A stretch of 64,000 bases of DNA from Mycobacterium sp. (GCA_021732005.1 JAKFVT010000025.1:1-64000), one strand, 5' to 3'; shown: positions 29,044 to 40,665, numbered from the stretch's first letter. Notes: generated by a model from the letters alone, not told the origin. Made by a program: numbers and translations.

Positions 29044-29541
29044 GTGAAGCGAATTCTCGCGGTCGGTGTCGGCGTGCTCGGCTGCAGCATGCTGCTCATG
29101 GCTTGCTCCGACAACAACAGCAGCAGCAAGGGCTCCAGCTCGGCGACGGGTGCCGCGCCCACCAGTGTCTCGGTGGCCTCCAGCGGGAAGACGTCGGTGA
29201 AGGTCGAGGGAAATGACCTGCAGGGCCTGGACCTGAACTCCGTGACCTGCGTGAAGCAGGGCGGCACGATCAACATCGCCAGCGGCGCTGTGGGCGGCCA
29301 GCAGGGGCTCGGTGTGGTCATGAAAGACGGTCAGCCGCCGACCGTGCAGTCCCTCGGGATGGTCGTCGACGGCAACGCGCTCGCGGTGAGCGACAACATG
29401 GGCATGAAGACCGGTTCTGCCGACGTGAAGGTGGACGGCAACACCTACACCATCACCGGCGAGGCGGCCGGCGCCGACATGAAGAACCCCATGGCCGGCA
29501 TGATCAGCAAGAAGTTCGAAATCTCCGTCACCTGCAAGTGA
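29044..29541 (+). CDS. LpqH-family (19 kDa antigen-like) lipoprotein
   Basis: Lipobox LLMACSDNNSSS; VKVEGNDLQGLDLNSVTCVKQGGTINIAS; KKFEISVTC. Confidence 0.8.
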   Translation: MKRILAVGVGVLGCSMLLMACSDNNSSSKGSSSATGAAPTSVSVASSGKTSVKVEGNDLQGLDLNSVTCVKQGGTINIASGAVGGQQGLGVVMKDGQPPTVQSLGMVVDGNALAVSDNMGMKTGSADVKVDGNTYTITGEAAGADMKNPMAGMISKKFEISVTCK

Positions 29542-29567: not shown

Positions 29568-29592
29568 GGCGGACGTGCCGAGCACGTCCGCC
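29568..29592. terminator. stem-loop downstream of LpqH-like gene
   Basis: GGCGGACGTGC-CGA-GCACGTCCGCC perfect 11-bp arms. Confidence 0.7.
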
Positions 29593-29641
29593 GTCTCGCC
29601 GTTACCTGTATCGGCGGCCGTGGCCGACTTATGATCCAGCC

Positions 29642-31324
29642 GTGTCCATCACCGGCGATCTGCAGCGGGCCCGCCAGCTCGCCCTTGCCGCCCAGGAAGA
29701 GAAGGCCAAAGACCTCCTGCTGTCGCTGATGCCGCAGATCGAGAACGAGGACCGCGACGACCTCGCACTCGAAGCCTTCGCCCAACTGGGCGAAATCTAT
29801 CTCACCCGAACGGCTTACGACGGCACCCGCGAATGCCTGAAGCGCATGACCGACTGCCTCGCCGCATACCCCGACCGCGGAGCCGAGACCGACCTCATGG
29901 TCGCCCGCTACATCCTGCGAGCACGCTTCCTGCGCACCGGTCTGGCCGCGGCCGCCGGTGAACACGAAGAAGCCGCTCGGGAACTGACCGGACTGCGCGA
30001 CGACGACGCCGCGCAGCGGTTCGCCGACCTGGAGCCCGAACAGCGCCACCTCGCGACGTTGGCCGGGGTGCTGTGCGCGACGGCGCTGTGCGACGACGAC
30101 CTGCACGTGCCGGCAGCGCAGTTGTGGCAGGACGTCATTCCGGTCATCGACGAGCTGGCCGGGGGCACCGACGACGCCGACCAGCTGTTGGTCGCCGCCG
30201 GGCTGGCCTACGGCCGGTTCTGCGTGGAGACCGGCCGACTCGACGAAGGGGAGCAGTGGCTGCGTCGGGCCGGTGCCCGCGCGCAGCGCCGCGAGTGGAA
30301 ACTGTATTGGGCCAGAGCCGAACTCGAGACCGCTGCCGCCATGTGGATGCGCGGCGATCATGAGTCCACCGAACGTTTGGTCGGGTCCGCCTATCCGGTG
30401 ATCGCCGAGCATTCCCGCGCACATGACGTCGCCCGTTGCTGGCTGTATTTCGGGCTGACCCGGCTGGGTGTCGGCTGGCTCAAAGAGGCCGACGAATCCT
30501 GGGGCCACGCCGAGACGCAGTGGCGGGAGTTGGGCCGTCCGCTGTTCGTCCATCGCATTCTGTTGCAGCGCAGCTGGATTTCGGTGTTCCGCGGCCGCTT
30601 CGACGAGGCCGTCGAGCAGGTGGCGGAGGCGCGGCGGTTCCTCGACGGCTGGCCGCGATCGAGTTGGCTGCAGTATGCGCGGCTCGACGACCACCTCGGT
30701 TCGATCTGGCGGGCCGACGCGTTGGCGGACCTGAACTTCGACGGAATCGGCGATCCCTCGGACAGCTGGCAGGCCAACAAGGAGCGGCAGGTCGCCTCGC
30801 TTGGCGTCACTCGGTTCGAGTCGGGAAGCGACCGTCACCGCAGTGCGCTGGCCAAGCTGGAGAAGGCCGCGGAACTCAAGATTCCGGCCGCGCTCGCGGT
30901 CGACTCGGTGCGCTACGCCATGACGGATGCCGACGCGCGCTGGCGGTGGGCGTCCCAGGTCTCGGCGCGCATGCTGGCCGGCGCTTTCTCGGTGGCCTGG
31001 GAGTGGGAGAACGACGAACTGCTCAGCGAACTCATTGAATACCACTGCGCACGAGGCACTTTCGCCAGCGAGCCGCGCGGCGAGGCTGGCGGCTGGGAGG
31101 CGCCTGCCACGGTGACGGTTCCCGTCGAGACCTTCGACGAGGAGGCACTGGCCGCAGGCGGCTACTCGGTCGACGCCCTGACTCAGACGACACTCGGAGC
31201 CTTGCCGCCGCTACAGATGGATCCCGACGGCTCACCGATTCTGGCGCGCTACCGGCTGCTTGCGCAGAACCGCTACGGCCAGGCCGTCACCTCCGGCGGC
31301 CCCGTCTGGTCGACGTGGCCATGA
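29642..31324 (+). CDS. TPR-like helical-repeat protein, CHAT partner
   Basis: GTG start; repeated helix pairs (QLGEIYLTRTAYDGTRECL, AYGRFCVETGRLDEGEQWLRRA, SWISVFRGRFDEAVEQVAEARRFL); stop overlaps next ATG (ATGA). Confidence 0.75.
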   Translation: MSITGDLQRARQLALAAQEEKAKDLLLSLMPQIENEDRDDLALEAFAQLGEIYLTRTAYDGTRECLKRMTDCLAAYPDRGAETDLMVARYILRARFLRTGLAAAAGEHEEAARELTGLRDDDAAQRFADLEPEQRHLATLAGVLCATALCDDDLHVPAAQLWQDVIPVIDELAGGTDDADQLLVAAGLAYGRFCVETGRLDEGEQWLRRAGARAQRREWKLYWARAELETAAAMWMRGDHESTERLVGSAYPVIAEHSRAHDVARCWLYFGLTRLGVGWLKEADESWGHAETQWRELGRPLFVHRILLQRSWISVFRGRFDEAVEQVAEARRFLDGWPRSSWLQYARLDDHLGSIWRADALADLNFDGIGDPSDSWQANKERQVASLGVTRFESGSDRHRSALAKLEKAAELKIPAALAVDSVRYAMTDADARWRWASQVSARMLAGAFSVAWEWENDELLSELIEYHCARGTFASEPRGEAGGWEAPATVTVPVETFDEEALAAGGYSVDALTQTTLGALPPLQMDPDGSPILARYRLLAQNRYGQAVTSGGPVWSTWP

Positions 31325-32661
31325 CCACGACCCTGGTGCTGCGGTACGCCGACGTCGGAGTGGCGACCTATGCCAGCCTGCGCATCGTCGGCAGGCCGGA
31401 ACGCACCGTGACCTGGGTGGTGCACGAGCCGATCGTGCTCGCCGCGCTGGAGGAATTACGCGGGGCGCTGCCCGATCCCGACGGCGACGAGAGCCTGGCC
31501 GACGCGCTCGACCGGGCGTTGACCCGTGGCCCGTTCGCCACGGCGAAGGGGGAGTTGACCCTCGCCTACATCCTGGGTGTGCTGCTGATATCCGAGCCGG
31601 CGTGGCAGCTGATCGGGGAATGCGTCGCCGATCCGCGCCCGGTCGTGTTCGTCTCACCGAGCGCGCGCCTGGCCCGGATTCCGTGGGCGGCATTGGCGGT
31701 TCCGCTGACGGGGCCGAGTCCCGAGGAGTTGGTCGCCGCCCGCAAGGAGGCGGTCACCTTCAAAGGGACCACCGCGGCCCGCATTCCGTGGCAGCTCGCC
31801 GACATCGACACCGTCACCGAGGGTGTGCGGCTGATGGAGATGGTCGACGTGGTGATGGCGGTACCGCCCAACATCGTGCACGCCCCTCGCACACCGGCAC
31901 GCTGGCAGGAAAGACGCGGTGCGCCAGCACTTCTCGTGGTCGATCCGCGCGTACCGGGCCAGCGGCCCGATTCCGCCCTGGGTTCGGTGCTGGGCCGGCC
32001 GTCGAGCGAGGGCGCGCTGACCCGCCATTTCGGCGAGCTGCTCGCGCACCGCGCGGTGCTGCCCGAAGTCACCGCCCCGGTGGAGTTGTTCCGCCGAACC
32101 GACGCCGACCGGGGCTGGCTGGCCGCACACCTGAAGCTGGCTCCGAGCCGGATGCTGTTCGTCGGTCATGCCAGCGCCGCCGACCGTGCGCACGGCTACG
32201 CCGACCGCGCGGCCCTTCACCTGGCCTGCACGGCTGCGGCGGACGGCGCGGCCGAACCGGTCGGGGATCACCGCCCGCTGCTGGCCTCGGACCTGATGGC
32301 CGCCCAGCTGCCGGTGCCGCCGCGGGTGGCTCTGCTCGCATGCGGTTCCGGCGGTGACTATCAGTTCGACGAAGCGACCGGATTGGTCGCCGCGATGGTC
32401 CTCTGCGGCAGCGAGCTGGTGACCGCCACGCTGTGGTCGCTGCCGACGACGGCGGGCTATCGCCGGTTCACCGGGCGTGCCGAGGATCCGATGGCCGACG
32501 TGGTGATGGCCGTCGACGACGCGCACGAGGCCGACGACGCGGTGTTGAGCGTGAATCGCTGGCAGCGGGCCCAGATGCGCCGGTGGCGCGACGGCGATGC
32601 CACCGCGAGCCCGCTGTACTGGGCCGCGGTGGTCACCTTCGCGGTCGGGGGTGCCCGGTGA
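31321..32661 (+). CDS. CHAT domain-containing (caspase-like) protein
   Basis: LARIPWAAL, MLFVGHASA (His 283), VALLACGSG (Cys 341), GLVAAMVLCGSELVTATLWSL: the ordered CHAT motif set. Confidence 0.85.
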   Translation: MTTTLVLRYADVGVATYASLRIVGRPERTVTWVVHEPIVLAALEELRGALPDPDGDESLADALDRALTRGPFATAKGELTLAYILGVLLISEPAWQLIGECVADPRPVVFVSPSARLARIPWAALAVPLTGPSPEELVAARKEAVTFKGTTAARIPWQLADIDTVTEGVRLMEMVDVVMAVPPNIVHAPRTPARWQERRGAPALLVVDPRVPGQRPDSALGSVLGRPSSEGALTRHFGELLAHRAVLPEVTAPVELFRRTDADRGWLAAHLKLAPSRMLFVGHASAADRAHGYADRAALHLACTAAADGAAEPVGDHRPLLASDLMAAQLPVPPRVALLACGSGGDYQFDEATGLVAAMVLCGSELVTATLWSLPTTAGYRRFTGRAEDPMADVVMAVDDAHEADDAVLSVNRWQRAQMRRWRDGDATASPLYWAAVVTFAVGGAR

Positions 32662-32723
32662 GCGGCGGCGGCCGCGACAGAGGGGCTGTGATCAGCTGCG
32701 GTGTCGATGAACGCGCCGAGCGT

Positions 32724-33383
32724 TTAGGCAGGGGGCACGCACACCGCGATCGCGGACTCGTCCTCCGGGAGGTAGTAGGCGTCGATGATGCTGCCGGGGG
32801 AGACCTTGGCCAGCGCGGCCTCGGGCACCAGGGTGACCTCCTGGGCCGGGAACTGGCCGCCGCCGGGTCGGGTGACGATCAGATCCAGTTCGACCTCGCG
32901 GAGCTCCTCACGCTCGCGGCCGGTGGCCCGCATCCCGGTCACCACGCCGCACGAGCGGGTGCCGAAGCGGATCAGATCGAGCTGGTCGTGGGTCAGCACG
33001 CCGTGGCGCAGCAGTGTGTGGTCGGCGGTGGCCCGCACCGCGATCGCATCGTCGGCCAGCGAGAGCTGCTTGCGGCTGGCCGGGTCGAAGGACACCAGCA
33101 CGATCACGCCGGGGCGCAGGGCGGACAGCACCTCGTCATCCGCGCCGTGGCACAGTCGGCCGGTGAAGCGCTGGCCTGCAACGCTTTCCACTTCGATGAC
33201 GATCACGGGATCGTCGGATCCCGCCACCATCTGCACCGTGCCTACGCCGATCGAGCGCGGGCAGCGGGTACTGCGTGGACGTCGCCTGCGCGGCGGCTGT
33301 CCGGCCAGGCCGGCGGCGACGATGATCGAGGCGAGTGCGATGGCGGAGACGACGGCGATGGCGCCCAGGAGTGCATCAGACAT
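32724..33383 (-). CDS. single-TM hypothetical protein
   Basis: N-term ALLGAIAVVSAIALASIIVAAGLAG TM followed by a beta-rich soluble part. Confidence 0.65.
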   Translation of the reverse strand: MSDALLGAIAVVSAIALASIIVAAGLAGQPPRRRRPRSTRCPRSIGVGTVQMVAGSDDPVIVIEVESVAGQRFTGRLCHGADDEVLSALRPGVIVLVSFDPASRKQLSLADDAIAVRATADHTLLRHGVLTHDQLDLIRFGTRSCGVVTGMRATGREREELREVELDLIVTRPGGGQFPAQEVTLVPEAALAKVSPGSIIDAYYLPEDESAIAVCVPPA

Positions 33384-33449
33384 GGTGTGCAGCGTGCCGA
33401 CAGTCGGCGGCTACCGAACCCAACTTTGCGCTGGCCTTATTCTGTCCGG

Positions 33450-34769
33450 ATGAGCGCCGGCCCGGACACCGTCACAGGTGTCGGCACGTCGCAACCGCGG
33501 CGGGCCGTGATCGACCGTGCGTGGCGGATGATCGGCCCCGGCGTCGAGGTCCTGAGCGGCGACGACGGCGGGCCGCTGCGCAGGACGGTGAAGCGGATCA
33601 TCGATCCGCTGGTGCTGAGGCTGCGCAGCAATCCCGCCTACTCCGCACCGTTCGTCGACGCCGACGTGGCGGCTGAGATGGCCGACGTGATCGGCGACCA
33701 CGCGGACCGGCTGCGTTGGGCCGCAGCATGGTTCGATTTGATGAAGCAGGAACGCCGGCGTCTACGCATCACCACCGGCAATGCCCAGGATCTTTATTTC
33801 CCAGTGTGTTTCGAGCTCGCCGTCACCGACGGGGCGCCCGGCGGGAACGGGCTCGACGTGGCGTCGGCGGCGCTGCGTGCCGTTCACGACGACCGCGACC
33901 GCACCGCCGTGGAGGTGCTCAACGCGCATGTCGCCTCACCGCAGGTGATGGCTCGCCTGTCGGCCCAACTGCATCGCAGCTGGGCTGACGTTCGCGCCGA
34001 CGACAGCATCAGCGGACCGTTCCTGGCCGGCCTGACCACGGTGCTGGGTCCGGCCGAGGGGCATCGCGCCGCCATTGCCCGCCAACGGGTGTGGTCGGCG
34101 CTGATCGCCGATGCGACGCCGCACAACCTCGGCGCCCGCGCCCGCAGTCAACCGTCGGCGTTGCCGTGGTCGCTGGTCGACCTGGGTCTGACCGCGGCGT
34201 TGCCGCTGGGGCCGCCGCCGTTGGCCGGGGGACCGGAGCGCGACCGGCCGCTGGACCGCAGCGTGGTCGACCGGGTGCGGGCCACTCTGCGCCGCGCGCT
34301 GGATCGTGACGAGTTGCCGGACGTGCCGCTGCTGTGCGCCGAGGAGGTCGACCGGGCTTGCGCGCCTTGGGGGTTCCTCGGTGAGGACAATCAGGCCGCG
34401 CTGGTGGCGGGTATCGAGGTGGCCGGCCAGCTGGCACCGCTCGACGAACGGGCCGTGACCACCTATCAGGTGGCGACGATCATCCAGGCCCGGTTGCGCA
34501 AGGAGGCGTACGTGCTGCACGCACGCCGGGTACTGGCCGGTGCCGACCCGTTGCATCCGCGTCAGCGGCGGGTCGTCGAGGACCTTGCGTGCTTCGCCCA
34601 GCCGTACCTGAGTCGGCTGTGGGCGCGGTTGCACGGCCGCGACGTATGGCAGGAACCCTGCGACGATGTCGACGATCTGCGTGCCCTGCTGGAAGGGGTG
34701 GCTCGTTCGGTCAGCCTCGACCACCGGCAGCGGATCAAGGCGATGCTGGAAGTGCAGGTGACCGAATGA
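33450..34769 (+). CDS. uncharacterised 439-aa helical protein
   Basis: Full ORF MSAGPDTVTG...; stop overlaps next ATG (ATGA at 34766). Confidence 0.65.
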   Translation: MSAGPDTVTGVGTSQPRRAVIDRAWRMIGPGVEVLSGDDGGPLRRTVKRIIDPLVLRLRSNPAYSAPFVDADVAAEMADVIGDHADRLRWAAAWFDLMKQERRRLRITTGNAQDLYFPVCFELAVTDGAPGGNGLDVASAALRAVHDDRDRTAVEVLNAHVASPQVMARLSAQLHRSWADVRADDSISGPFLAGLTTVLGPAEGHRAAIARQRVWSALIADATPHNLGARARSQPSALPWSLVDLGLTAALPLGPPPLAGGPERDRPLDRSVVDRVRATLRRALDRDELPDVPLLCAEEVDRACAPWGFLGEDNQAALVAGIEVAGQLAPLDERAVTTYQVATIIQARLRKEAYVLHARRVLAGADPLHPRQRRVVEDLACFAQPYLSRLWARLHGRDVWQEPCDDVDDLRALLEGVARSVSLDHRQRIKAMLEVQVTE

Positions 34770-35896
34770 GGTTGGTGGCCGACTCCGGGTTGTGGCGGAT
34801 CGGGCCCGCGGTGGCCGCGGTACCGTCGGTCGCGGTGCTCGAGGTCGACGGCGCGGTGCTGGCCTGGACCGTCGACGATTCGGCGGACGCGTCCGGCGCA
34901 CAGATCACCCTGACCGACGCCGCCCGCGCGGACTGGCTGTGGCGGGTACTCGGCGAAGACGGCCACCATGCGCTGGCCGCTGCGACAGCCGAACCGCCGG
35001 ATCGCGATGCCGGAGTTGATCTTTCGGGCGTCGAGATACAGCCCGGCGCCGTGGACGGGTTGCGCCGGCTGGCCGTCGGGCATTGGCTGCGCCGGTGGTG
35101 GCCGGCCAGTGTGCGCGACGGCATCGTCGGCCTCGATCCGGCATTGCTGGATGCCGAGATAGCGCTGCTGACCGCCGATGCCGAGGACTTCGTCGCCGAC
35201 GACGGCCTGGACGCCGACATCGGCGCGCTGCTGGCCCCGCACGCCGGCGCGCTCGCAATGCATCTGCTCGCCGGTGACCCGCGGGTGGTCGAGCTGGTCC
35301 GCAACTCCGTGCGGCTGGCCGAGGAGGTGGGCGTCGACGCGCCGGGCTGGGCCGACCTGAGCGACGCCCTCGAGAACGTTCAGCTGCAGCCGACGGCGGT
35401 GCGCCAGGACGACTATGCGCTGGCCGCCGGCGGCGACACCGGACCGACCCCGACGGGACTGATCGCCCGTGGCGCGGCGTCGATCGCGTGGTCCGGGGTG
35501 CCCAGTGGCGTCTTCGACGCCGCGGAGGACACCGTGAGATGGGCGGTGGCCGCCGACGGCGACCGGGTGACCGCGACGCTGCACACCGCGGTGATCGGAC
35601 CCGGCTCACCAGCCGGTATCCCGGTGGCACTGCGCTGTGGGGACGTCGCCGGCGTGGGCGAACTCGACGGATCGGGCCGTGCGGTGATCCCGCTGCTCGA
35701 TCGGTCGAACGCACCGTTGACCGCCGCGGGCGGATGGGACCAGGACTGGTCGGCCACCGCCGTCACCGTCGGGGCCGAGGTGGCGGAGGCTCCCGACGCG
35801 CGCGAACGGGTCCGGCGGTTCGCCCGGCAGCGACTCGCGCAACCGGGACCTGATGCGTTCCTCGCCGAGACCCTGGCCGCGGAGTCCGACTACTAG
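34766..35896 (+). CDS. uncharacterised 376-aa protein
   Basis: Full ORF MRLVADSGLWRIG...; translationally coupled to the preceding gene. Confidence 0.65.
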   Translation: MRLVADSGLWRIGPAVAAVPSVAVLEVDGAVLAWTVDDSADASGAQITLTDAARADWLWRVLGEDGHHALAAATAEPPDRDAGVDLSGVEIQPGAVDGLRRLAVGHWLRRWWPASVRDGIVGLDPALLDAEIALLTADAEDFVADDGLDADIGALLAPHAGALAMHLLAGDPRVVELVRNSVRLAEEVGVDAPGWADLSDALENVQLQPTAVRQDDYALAAGGDTGPTPTGLIARGAASIAWSGVPSGVFDAAEDTVRWAVAADGDRVTATLHTAVIGPGSPAGIPVALRCGDVAGVGELDGSGRAVIPLLDRSNAPLTAAGGWDQDWSATAVTVGAEVAEAPDARERVRRFARQRLAQPGPDAFLAETLAAESDY

Positions 35897-37210: not shown

Positions 37211-38335
37211 TCACAGCAGCGGGGTGTCGTACCCGTCGTTGTCGCCGTCGCAGATGCTGAGGTTCGGACTCACCACGTAGCGCGCCTGATTGCCGCCGGC
37301 CCGCCGGGCCTCGTACATCGCGGTGGTGGCCAATGCCACGATCTCGTCGAGGATCTCGTTGGGTGGGTGCTCGACCAGCGGCTGCAGCGGGGTGCTCACC
37401 ACACCGATGCTGGCCGTCATCCCGGCCGGCGACGAGGCGATCGCACCCCGGATCCGCTCGATCAACGGTGACGAATCGGGTGTCGTGAAGCAGTCGGCGA
37501 CAAGGAATTCCGCCTCGCTGACATGTCCGACGATCGCGTCGCGGCGCACCGTCTCACGCAGCGCCTGGCCCGCGGCCACCCGTGCCCGGTTGCCACCGCG
37601 GTTGCCTGCGACGGCGACCATCGCCGCGAAGCTGTCGATGTTTACGACGGCGATCACCAGGTAGCGGTCGTCGCCGCGGTTGCGCGAGGCCAGGAGCGTG
37701 GCCGTCTGCAGATAGAACGCGTCGCGGTTGAGCAGTCCGGTGAGCGGCTCGACCGCATCGGCGCCATCCTCGGCGCCGGTCAGCCACACCACCAGCCGGC
37801 AGGAGAAAGCCGCGAAGACATACAGCAGCAGGATCAATGCGACGCCGGCCAGCGTCAGCGCAAGGTCGGCGCCGGCCATCTGCACAGCCAGGTAGAGCAG
37901 GGTTCCGAGGGCGATGGTCAGGACCGTCGCCAGCAACCGCGGACCGTGAAAGAGCGCGGCGTACCCGATGATCAGTGCGAACGATGAGGCGCCCAGCAGT
38001 CCGTAGAGCGGCACCACCGGAAGGATGGACCCGATGGTGATGGACACCGCCGCGACGACGACCAGCAATGCCGACTCGTTGCGGGTCGGCCAGCGGTGCC
38101 GCAACCAGATGAACGTCGACGCGAAGCACAGTGCGGACACCACGATCAGCAGGGATCGGCTGAACGGCCACTGCAGTGTCGCCGAGCTGCCGATGGTCGA
38201 CAGGGTGATCAGGCCCAGCGTGAAGACGCTGCCGGCGATCACCCGCGAGGTGTAGGTCTGCGCGCCACGGGCCGCGAGCAGGGCAGTCAAGGAGTAGTAC
38301 TGATTCGCGGATCGGGTGGACAACGCCAGACGCAT
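37211..38335 (-). CDS. membrane protein with degenerate GGDEF domain
   Basis: About 6 TM helices, then EPLTGLLNRDAFY; GGDEF position reads HVSEAEFLVA. Confidence 0.8.
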   Translation of the reverse strand: MRLALSTRSANQYYSLTALLAARGAQTYTSRVIAGSVFTLGLITLSTIGSSATLQWPFSRSLLIVVSALCFASTFIWLRHRWPTRNESALLVVVAAVSITIGSILPVVPLYGLLGASSFALIIGYAALFHGPRLLATVLTIALGTLLYLAVQMAGADLALTLAGVALILLLYVFAAFSCRLVVWLTGAEDGADAVEPLTGLLNRDAFYLQTATLLASRNRGDDRYLVIAVVNIDSFAAMVAVAGNRGGNRARVAAGQALRETVRRDAIVGHVSEAEFLVADCFTTPDSSPLIERIRGAIASSPAGMTASIGVVSTPLQPLVEHPPNEILDEIVALATTAMYEARRAGGNQARYVVSPNLSICDGDNDGYDTPLL

Positions 38336-39384: not shown

Positions 39385-40665
39385 GTGGCGTCGGCCGAAC
39401 AGCCGAACCCTGACGACGAACTCCGGCAACTGTGGCAACTCATCAACCATCTGCCGGGCATCGTCGGATACTGGGATCGCAATCTCCGCAACGTGATTGC
39501 CAATGATGCCTACCTGCAGTACTTCGCGATGGCACCGCACCAGGTGCACGGCCGGCATATCCGCCAGGTGTTGGGCGAGACCGTCTACGCCCTGAACCTG
39601 CCCTACATCATGGGCGCCCTTGCCGGCCGCGAGCAGCTGTTCGAGCGTGAGTTGGTCGGCCTCGGCGGCGTCACGCGGCGCACCCTGCTCGCCTACATCC
39701 CCAACATCGTCGACGGTGAAGTGCACGGCTTCTACGTCCAGGGCACCGACCTCACCACTGAGGCGCAAGCCGAGCGCACCCTCGACGACGCGCGCCGGCT
39801 GTTCGAGATCAGCATGGCCAACGCCCCGTACGGAAAAGCGGTCGCGATGACCACCGGCCAGATGCTGCTCGCCAACCCGGCGCTGTGCGCGTTGACCGGG
39901 TACGACGCAGACGAACTCGTCGGCCGCGACTACCGCGAGTTCGTTCACCCCGACGACGTTGCCGCCGGTGAGGAGGAGATGGCAGCGCTGCTGGCCGGGA
40001 CGGTCACCCAGGTTTCCTCCGAGCGCCGCTACATCCGCCGCGACGGGAGTGTGATCTGGATGCAGCGCAGCGCGGTCCTGGTGCCGGCCCGGTTGCCGGG
40101 GGCCGAGGACCTCATCATCGCGCAGTTCCAGGACGTCACGGCGCGGCGGATCGCCGAAGCCGAGCTGGCCCGGCTGGCCGTCACCGACCAGCTCACCGGG
40201 CTGTACAACCGCCGAGCTCTGGTCAGTAGCGTCGCGCAACACCAGACCGCCAGGCCGGGGACTCCGGTCGGCATGATCTTCATCGACCTGGACGGCTTCA
40301 AACAGGTCAACGACTCGCACGGGCACGCCACCGGTGACGTCGTCCTCGCCGAAGTGGGCCGCCGGCTGAGAAATGCTGTCGAGAAACCGAATTCGGCGTA
40401 TCGCCTCGGCGGTGACGAGTTCGTCGTCTTGCTTCCGGAGACCGCGCGGGACGCGGAGGTGCGCGCCCTGTCGGTGGCCGTGCGCTCCGCGCTGACCGGC
40501 CGCTACGCCGCCGACTCGAGCGAGTTCGACCTCACCGCGTCGGTGGGGTGGACGTGGGGACACGCCGATACCGCCGAGGACCTGATTCGCAAGGCCGACA
40601 TCGACATGTACCGGCACAAGGCACGGCTTCACCAGTCCGCCGTCCGGAGCGACCGCGACGTCTGA
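39385..40665 (+). CDS. PAS-domain diguanylate cyclase
   Basis: Two PAS-like segments (GIVGYWDRNLRNVIANDAYLQYF; ALTGYDADELVGRDYREFVHPDD) and canonical YRLGGDEFVVLLPE. Confidence 0.9.
   Translation: MASAEQPNPDDELRQLWQLINHLPGIVGYWDRNLRNVIANDAYLQYFAMAPHQVHGRHIRQVLGETVYALNLPYIMGALAGREQLFERELVGLGGVTRRTLLAYIPNIVDGEVHGFYVQGTDLTTEAQAERTLDDARRLFEISMANAPYGKAVAMTTGQMLLANPALCALTGYDADELVGRDYREFVHPDDVAAGEEEMAALLAGTVTQVSSERRYIRRDGSVIWMQRSAVLVPARLPGAEDLIIAQFQDVTARRIAEAELARLAVTDQLTGLYNRRALVSSVAQHQTARPGTPVGMIFIDLDGFKQVNDSHGHATGDVVLAEVGRRLRNAVEKPNSAYRLGGDEFVVLLPETARDAEVRALSVAVRSALTGRYAADSSEFDLTASVGWTWGHADTAEDLIRKADIDMYRHKARLHQSAVRSDRDV

Follow-up and report, generated by a model that had tools for sequence, protein, structure and literature searches.

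A CHAT-protease gene module of mycobacteria and other Actinomycetes that very probably acts as one unit and may be coupled to the cell envelope

The window analysed here is a stretch of 64,000 nucleotides from a mycobacterial genome of 5.76 Mb (Mycobacterium sp., GCA_021732005.1, JAKFVT010000025.1:1-64000), and at positions 29642-35896 it carries two gene pairs on the plus strand, A-B and D-E, separated by the minus-strand gene C (Table 1). The initial annotation, made from the sequence alone, had placed there a TPR gene, a CHAT gene, a membrane-protein gene on the opposite strand and two further genes, and all five were confirmed, as were the 4-base ATGA overlaps that it had described within each pair. 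These overlaps are conserved, that of D and E in 80 of 80 named loci and that of TPR and CHAT in 68 of 77. The left edge of the proposed five-gene unit did not hold, because the upstream gene for an LpqH-type lipoprotein belongs to the mycobacterial unit, and we have accordingly moved the start of the unit to 29044. The copies of D in Mycolicibacterium rhodesiae DSM 44223 and Mycobacterium sp. ENV421 are 95-96% identical to that of the window.

Table 1. Genes and promoter elements of the module, numbered from the first nucleotide of the window.
Feature	Coordinates	Strand	Length (aa)	Remarks
LpqH / 19-kDa-type lipoprotein	29044-29541	+	165	signal peptide, lipobox LMAC
TATGAT -10 element	29630-29635	+		leaderless promoter layout, 6 bases 5' of the TPR start codon (GTG)
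A, TPR-type helical-repeat protein	29642-31324	+	560	clear TPR in homologues
B, CHAT (caspase-like cysteine protease) protein	31321-32661	+	446	Pfam CHAT; His283/Cys341 predicted catalytic
C, N-terminal TM segment, basic linker, tandem DUF3592-like domains	32724-33383	-	219	homologues across families
TATTCT -10 element	33438-33443	+		second such layout, 6 bases 5' of the D start codon (ATG)
D, predicted all-helical protein, family-less in the libraries	33450-34769	+	439	no library match
E, protein family-less in the libraries	34766-35896	+	376	no library match

The product of gene B passes the curated cut-off of the Pfam CHAT profile (PF12770; E=9e-9, 35.6 bits against a cut-off of 24), a homologue scores 52.5 bits against the same profile, and residues His283 and Cys341, predicted to be the catalytic pair from their motif positions, are invariant in 17 mycobacterial and 13 cross-family CHAT sequences. 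On the strength of this profile match and invariant dyad we assign the protein to the CHAT family, and we consider it probable that it is an active protease. A stretch of about 40 residues (~131-168; window 31711-31824), variably present among mycobacteria, separates its N-terminal part from the catalytic part. The TPR protein of the window gave a marginal Pfam match only (TPR_19, E=0.12), and homologues from other families gave clear ones (TPR_12, down to 7e-23); in several other families TPR and CHAT are fused in frame into a protein of ~930-1060 aa.

Gene C had been described as a convergent gene for a single-TM protein. It is indeed a real minus-strand gene, as judged by a dN/dS of 0.14-0.37 in its own frame and by homologues in other families, but its product is more aptly called a membrane protein with tandem DUF3592-like repeats. 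It is DUF3592-like only, the cut-off for full membership being missed: the protein of the window had no match to the profile and its homologues reached 16-24 bits against a curated cut-off of 25.3. The basic stretch that follows the TM segment suggests a cytoplasmic C-terminus. Outside mycobacteria, homologues of C adjoin the core in most loci, none being detected at L083, L211, L213, L215, L218 and L219; in other families the gene is often divergent, and the linkage may therefore be regulatory or incidental.

For proteins D and E, searches of Pfam, NCBIfam and PADLOC gave no meaningful match with either single sequences or cross-family alignments, and comparison with PDB sequences also returned nothing. 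D is the most conserved member of the module, with a mean column identity of 78% in the genus and ~70% identity across it. Its AlphaFold model is all-helical and of low confidence (pLDDT 66, pTM 0.52), and a fold search in the PDB with this model, in which nothing was significant, was set aside as not interpretable. A longer reading frame for D (703-778 aa, extending upstream) was rejected, being antisense to C and, in several relatives, open for only ~450 codons; this, together with the conserved promoter at 33438, places the start of D at 33450. The model of E is confident (pLDDT 91, pTM 0.89) and consists of a small beta region at the N-terminus, a helical middle and a beta-rich C-terminal region. 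Since Foldseek matched it to no PDB fold (best E-value 0.34), E may represent a new arrangement; rows for SIR2-HerA in the same result were rejected as noise, and no homology is claimed at that E-value. E evolves fastest of the four core proteins (dN/dS 0.20-0.44), and every gene of the module is under purifying selection.

The lipoprotein encoded at the left edge matched Pfam Myco_19_kDa at E=2e-32, its lipobox being read from the sequence, and the profile of its family matched LpqH in the PDB at E~5e-18. Like mycobacterial LpqH, the 19-kDa lipoprotein (PDB 4zjm, 7fds), it is thus a member of that family; unlike LpqH itself, it is a distinct paralogue that travels with the protease module. 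Its gene lies directly 5' of the TPR gene in the mycobacterial loci that are uncut by a contig end. In 6 of 6 module-bearing genomes tested a copy at least 55% identical adjoins the module, while the best copy in 11 module-less genomes was 47% identical at most, and by these sequence comparisons it is a dedicated LpqH-family paralogue that accompanies the module. Beyond mycobacteria an LpqH-type lipoprotein stands beside the core in one further genus of their family and in G445, a genome of another family of the order, and in at least three other families its place is taken by a PA2928-family protein, a predicted exported beta-propeller, sometimes by two. An exported partner is not universal, and its type differs between families. 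No study of the role of the module lipoprotein came to light, nor, in the literature library searched, any paper on PA2928-family proteins. In a single genome a predicted serpin bearing a lipoprotein-like signal is encoded two genes away from the module (L218:7137-8432), a suggestive position for a protease inhibitor.

That the genes form one system had been proposed from their layout, and their distribution bears this out. Across 25 genomes of the same genus the five genes share one pattern of presence and absence, a single fragmented assembly excepted: TPR and CHAT both occur in an identical set of 18, D and E in an identical set of 19, and C, which is often short and diverged, in 18, having been missed in the module-bearing G019. 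The exception, G005, is assembled in 720 contigs and 84% complete; the lipoprotein, a fragment of C, D and E were found there (L040, L039), and TPR and CHAT were absent, through either a deletion or an assembly gap. The order lipoprotein-TPR-CHAT-C(-)-D-E is seen wherever the contig is long enough, and 71 of the 80 named loci of mycobacteria keep it; of the nine others, seven begin or stop on or close to a contig end, and in two the match to C is absent or out of place. Flanking genes define three recurrent chromosomal contexts (35, 25 and 14 loci, with six unassigned); the locus of the window falls in the third, which has an agmatinase and a GGDEF gene. The block is the same in all three, and so has been moved, or kept, as a unit. 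Two GGDEF-like genes (cyclic-di-GMP type, by eye) lie near the module in the window, at 37211-38335 and 39385-40665, and are absent from the other contexts.

A -10 element just ahead of the start codon is the layout of leaderless mycobacterial transcripts. TATNNT-type elements lie 6-8 bases 5' of the start of TPR in 71 of 77 loci and of D in 79 of 80, and the looser TANNNT layout was found at 75 of 77 and 79 of 80, respectively. The background for this layout is ~0.5% of random start codons; as the scan took the best start within 45 bases, the estimated chance rate rises to several per cent, far under what was observed. The same leaderless layout on both pairs in mycobacteria, together with the coupling within them, suggests that the pairs are probably made together. 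At lipoprotein starts the layout was seen in 0 of 73 cases, and this gene is therefore probably transcribed separately. A perfect short inverted repeat at 29571-29589, between the lipoprotein and TPR genes of the window, may by its appearance mark the end of the lipoprotein transcript.

Beyond the genus, the CHAT profile picked up relatives in further genera of the same order, and a cross-family profile of D identified 35 of 395 genomes in a sample of the class. The D-E-TPR-CHAT core occurs in eight actinobacterial families, that of the genus and seven others, usually in this order outside mycobacteria and often with TPR and CHAT as one protein; G445 has the mycobacterial order with TPR-CHAT fused. 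E and CHAT adjoin every intact D locus read outside the genus, the sole exception being the end of a 5-kb contig, and TPR is present at these loci as a match of its own or within a long protein ahead of CHAT, although the mycobacterial TPR profile did not pick out the gene that occupies the TPR position at L091 and L092. A match to D in G562 was rejected as spurious, no module being present there, and one in G798 as a remnant. A decayed copy (L220:9635-10231 and ~9724), comprising a D fragment with a stop and a PA2928-type remnant, indicates that the module has been lost by decay in some lineages. Independent occurrence of the genes, which the initial annotation had held to speak against a single module, was not seen for D and E; TPR and CHAT range somewhat more widely, as a TPR-CHAT pair without D or E at L094 and on plasmids of Rhodococcus. 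Cumulatively, the joint presence and absence, the constant order, the three contexts and the reordering of D, E, TPR and CHAT together in other families make it very probable that the genes form one functional unit.

On the Rhodococcus plasmids (L222:3019-7233, L223:2721-7218, L224:2724-6981) a related CHAT gene lies behind two unknown genes, for proteins of ~440-540 and 475 aa; a nearby TPR gene lies on the opposite strand. One of the plasmids is conjugative. Considered as homologues of D and E, the two genes are similar in size and position, but profile comparison did not support the assignment; the loci might represent a mobile form of the module, very distantly related to it.

Among bacterial CHAT proteases, those studied best belong with CRISPR or gasdermin systems. 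In Craspase, of type III-E CRISPR, the TPR-CHAT protease Csx29 works with Cas7-11/gRAMP as a switched effector (PMC9729208, PMC10028731). The module shares with Craspase the combination of a TPR scaffold and a CHAT protease, fused in some relatives, and differs from it in its partners, here D, E and membrane or exported proteins. The CHAT protein of the module is moreover not detectably related to Csx29 in sequence, having had no match among PDB sequences at E<=1, whether searched as a single sequence or as a family profile. The absence of a CRISPR neighbour noted at the outset was upheld, as there are no array-like repeats within the window and neither the module nor its scanned neighbours had a recognisable Cas7-11/gRAMP gene. 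As far as tested, the module works like a TPR-CHAT protease system but is not Craspase.

CATRA systems are associated with TPR proteins. These ternary conflict systems have been named as caspase-dependent (PMC8195603). The module is like them in joining a caspase-superfamily protease to further conserved components and unlike them in that no swapped effector domains were found in the loci scanned; with regard to CATRA components, D and E had no meaningful match in Pfam or NCBIfam, libraries that may or may not include CATRA models. Bacterial gasdermins, for their part, occur with a linked CHAT or caspase protease. Here too a CHAT protease stands beside a possible membrane target, but C is a TM-anchored DUF3592-like protein and not of a known pore-forming type, and no gasdermin was recognised among the genes of the module and its neighbours with libraries each of which may or may not hold a gasdermin model.

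We favour the reading, with a probability of roughly one half, that the module is a self-contained, envelope-coupled, multi-subunit CHAT protease switch. The membrane and exported partners point towards the cell envelope, and coupling of the module to the membrane or envelope is, taken by itself, a proposition on which we are evenly balanced. In such a switch the TPR protein, D and E would make up a cytoplasmic complex in which the TPR protein holds CHAT and the protease is off at rest. C would tether this complex to the membrane, and the exported partner, lipoprotein or propeller, would be its outer face, which senses or is protected. A signal relayed via C, or via E as the fastest-evolving core subunit, might then free CHAT, which would cleave one or a few cell proteins. 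We tentatively, and at somewhat less than even odds, see its role in envelope maintenance or a stress response and not in suicide or anti-phage defence. A more specific and speculative form, which we would not bet on, is an undescribed type of transmembrane proteolytic signalling in Actinomycetes, in which an exported sensor of the envelope, lipoprotein or beta-propeller, acts through a DUF3592-like relay across the membrane and the D-E-TPR complex, made of new protein families, releases a caspase-like protease.

One alternative, raised in general form in the initial annotation, is a conflict or cell-death module. In such a module D and E would sense a phage or competitor and TPR would release CHAT, killing or arresting the cell, possibly through an action on C at the membrane in the manner of gasdermin-linked proteases. 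It would accord with the use of CHAT-TPR proteases elsewhere as switched effectors, as in Craspase, with the patchy spread in the class sample, with the fast evolution of E and with the plasmid-borne loci of Rhodococcus, with their TPR gene and two upstream genes. Nothing that we found favours it, however, and the slow evolution, the lack of a PADLOC match and the lack of copies in the phage records searched lean against an arms race; selection is strongly purifying and D well conserved across the genus, the chromosomal contexts there are few and recurrent, and no variable effector or sensor domains were seen to be swapped between loci. We therefore regard a conflict role as unlikely.

The same low dN/dS would suit a regulatory scaffold, in which CHAT is mainly a protein-binding domain or an enzyme processing a single substrate in ordinary physiology such as growth or cell-wall homeostasis, with no stress switch; so would the near-constant content and order in mycobacteria and the fact that no accessory defence genes were recognised among the neighbours scanned. 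Yet invariance of the catalytic His and Cys across families is unexpected in a mere binding domain, and the module is missing from a sizeable minority of the genus and hence is not essential housekeeping, so that we hold this explanation to be improbable. Far less credible still is the idea that TPR-CHAT and D-E are unrelated operons adjoining by chance or genome inertia. Their promoter layouts are separate in mycobacteria and L094 has TPR-CHAT without D or E, but the pairs adjoin in the opposite order in other families, stand together in each of the three contexts, and left no D locus without E or CHAT save the contig end and the decayed remnant. As stated, this reading is close to refuted.

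The literature library searched held no paper on CHAT-domain proteins in Mycobacterium smegmatis, nor on such a system in Streptomyces, and the job of the module is, as far as we could find, apparently undescribed. Many mycobacteria keep a CHAT protein alongside two protein families that the libraries do not name, a membrane protein and a lipoprotein related to the well-known LpqH antigen. If confirmed, the protease switch proposed here would constitute a general actinobacterial protease pathway, accessible to genetics in harmless environmental mycobacteria, and would provide a functional context for part of the LpqH family. Among the listed genomes of the genus, module-less ones tend to be smaller than module-bearing ones (4.4-5.3 Mb vs 5.0-7.5 Mb), a pattern consistent with a role that benefits free-living species.
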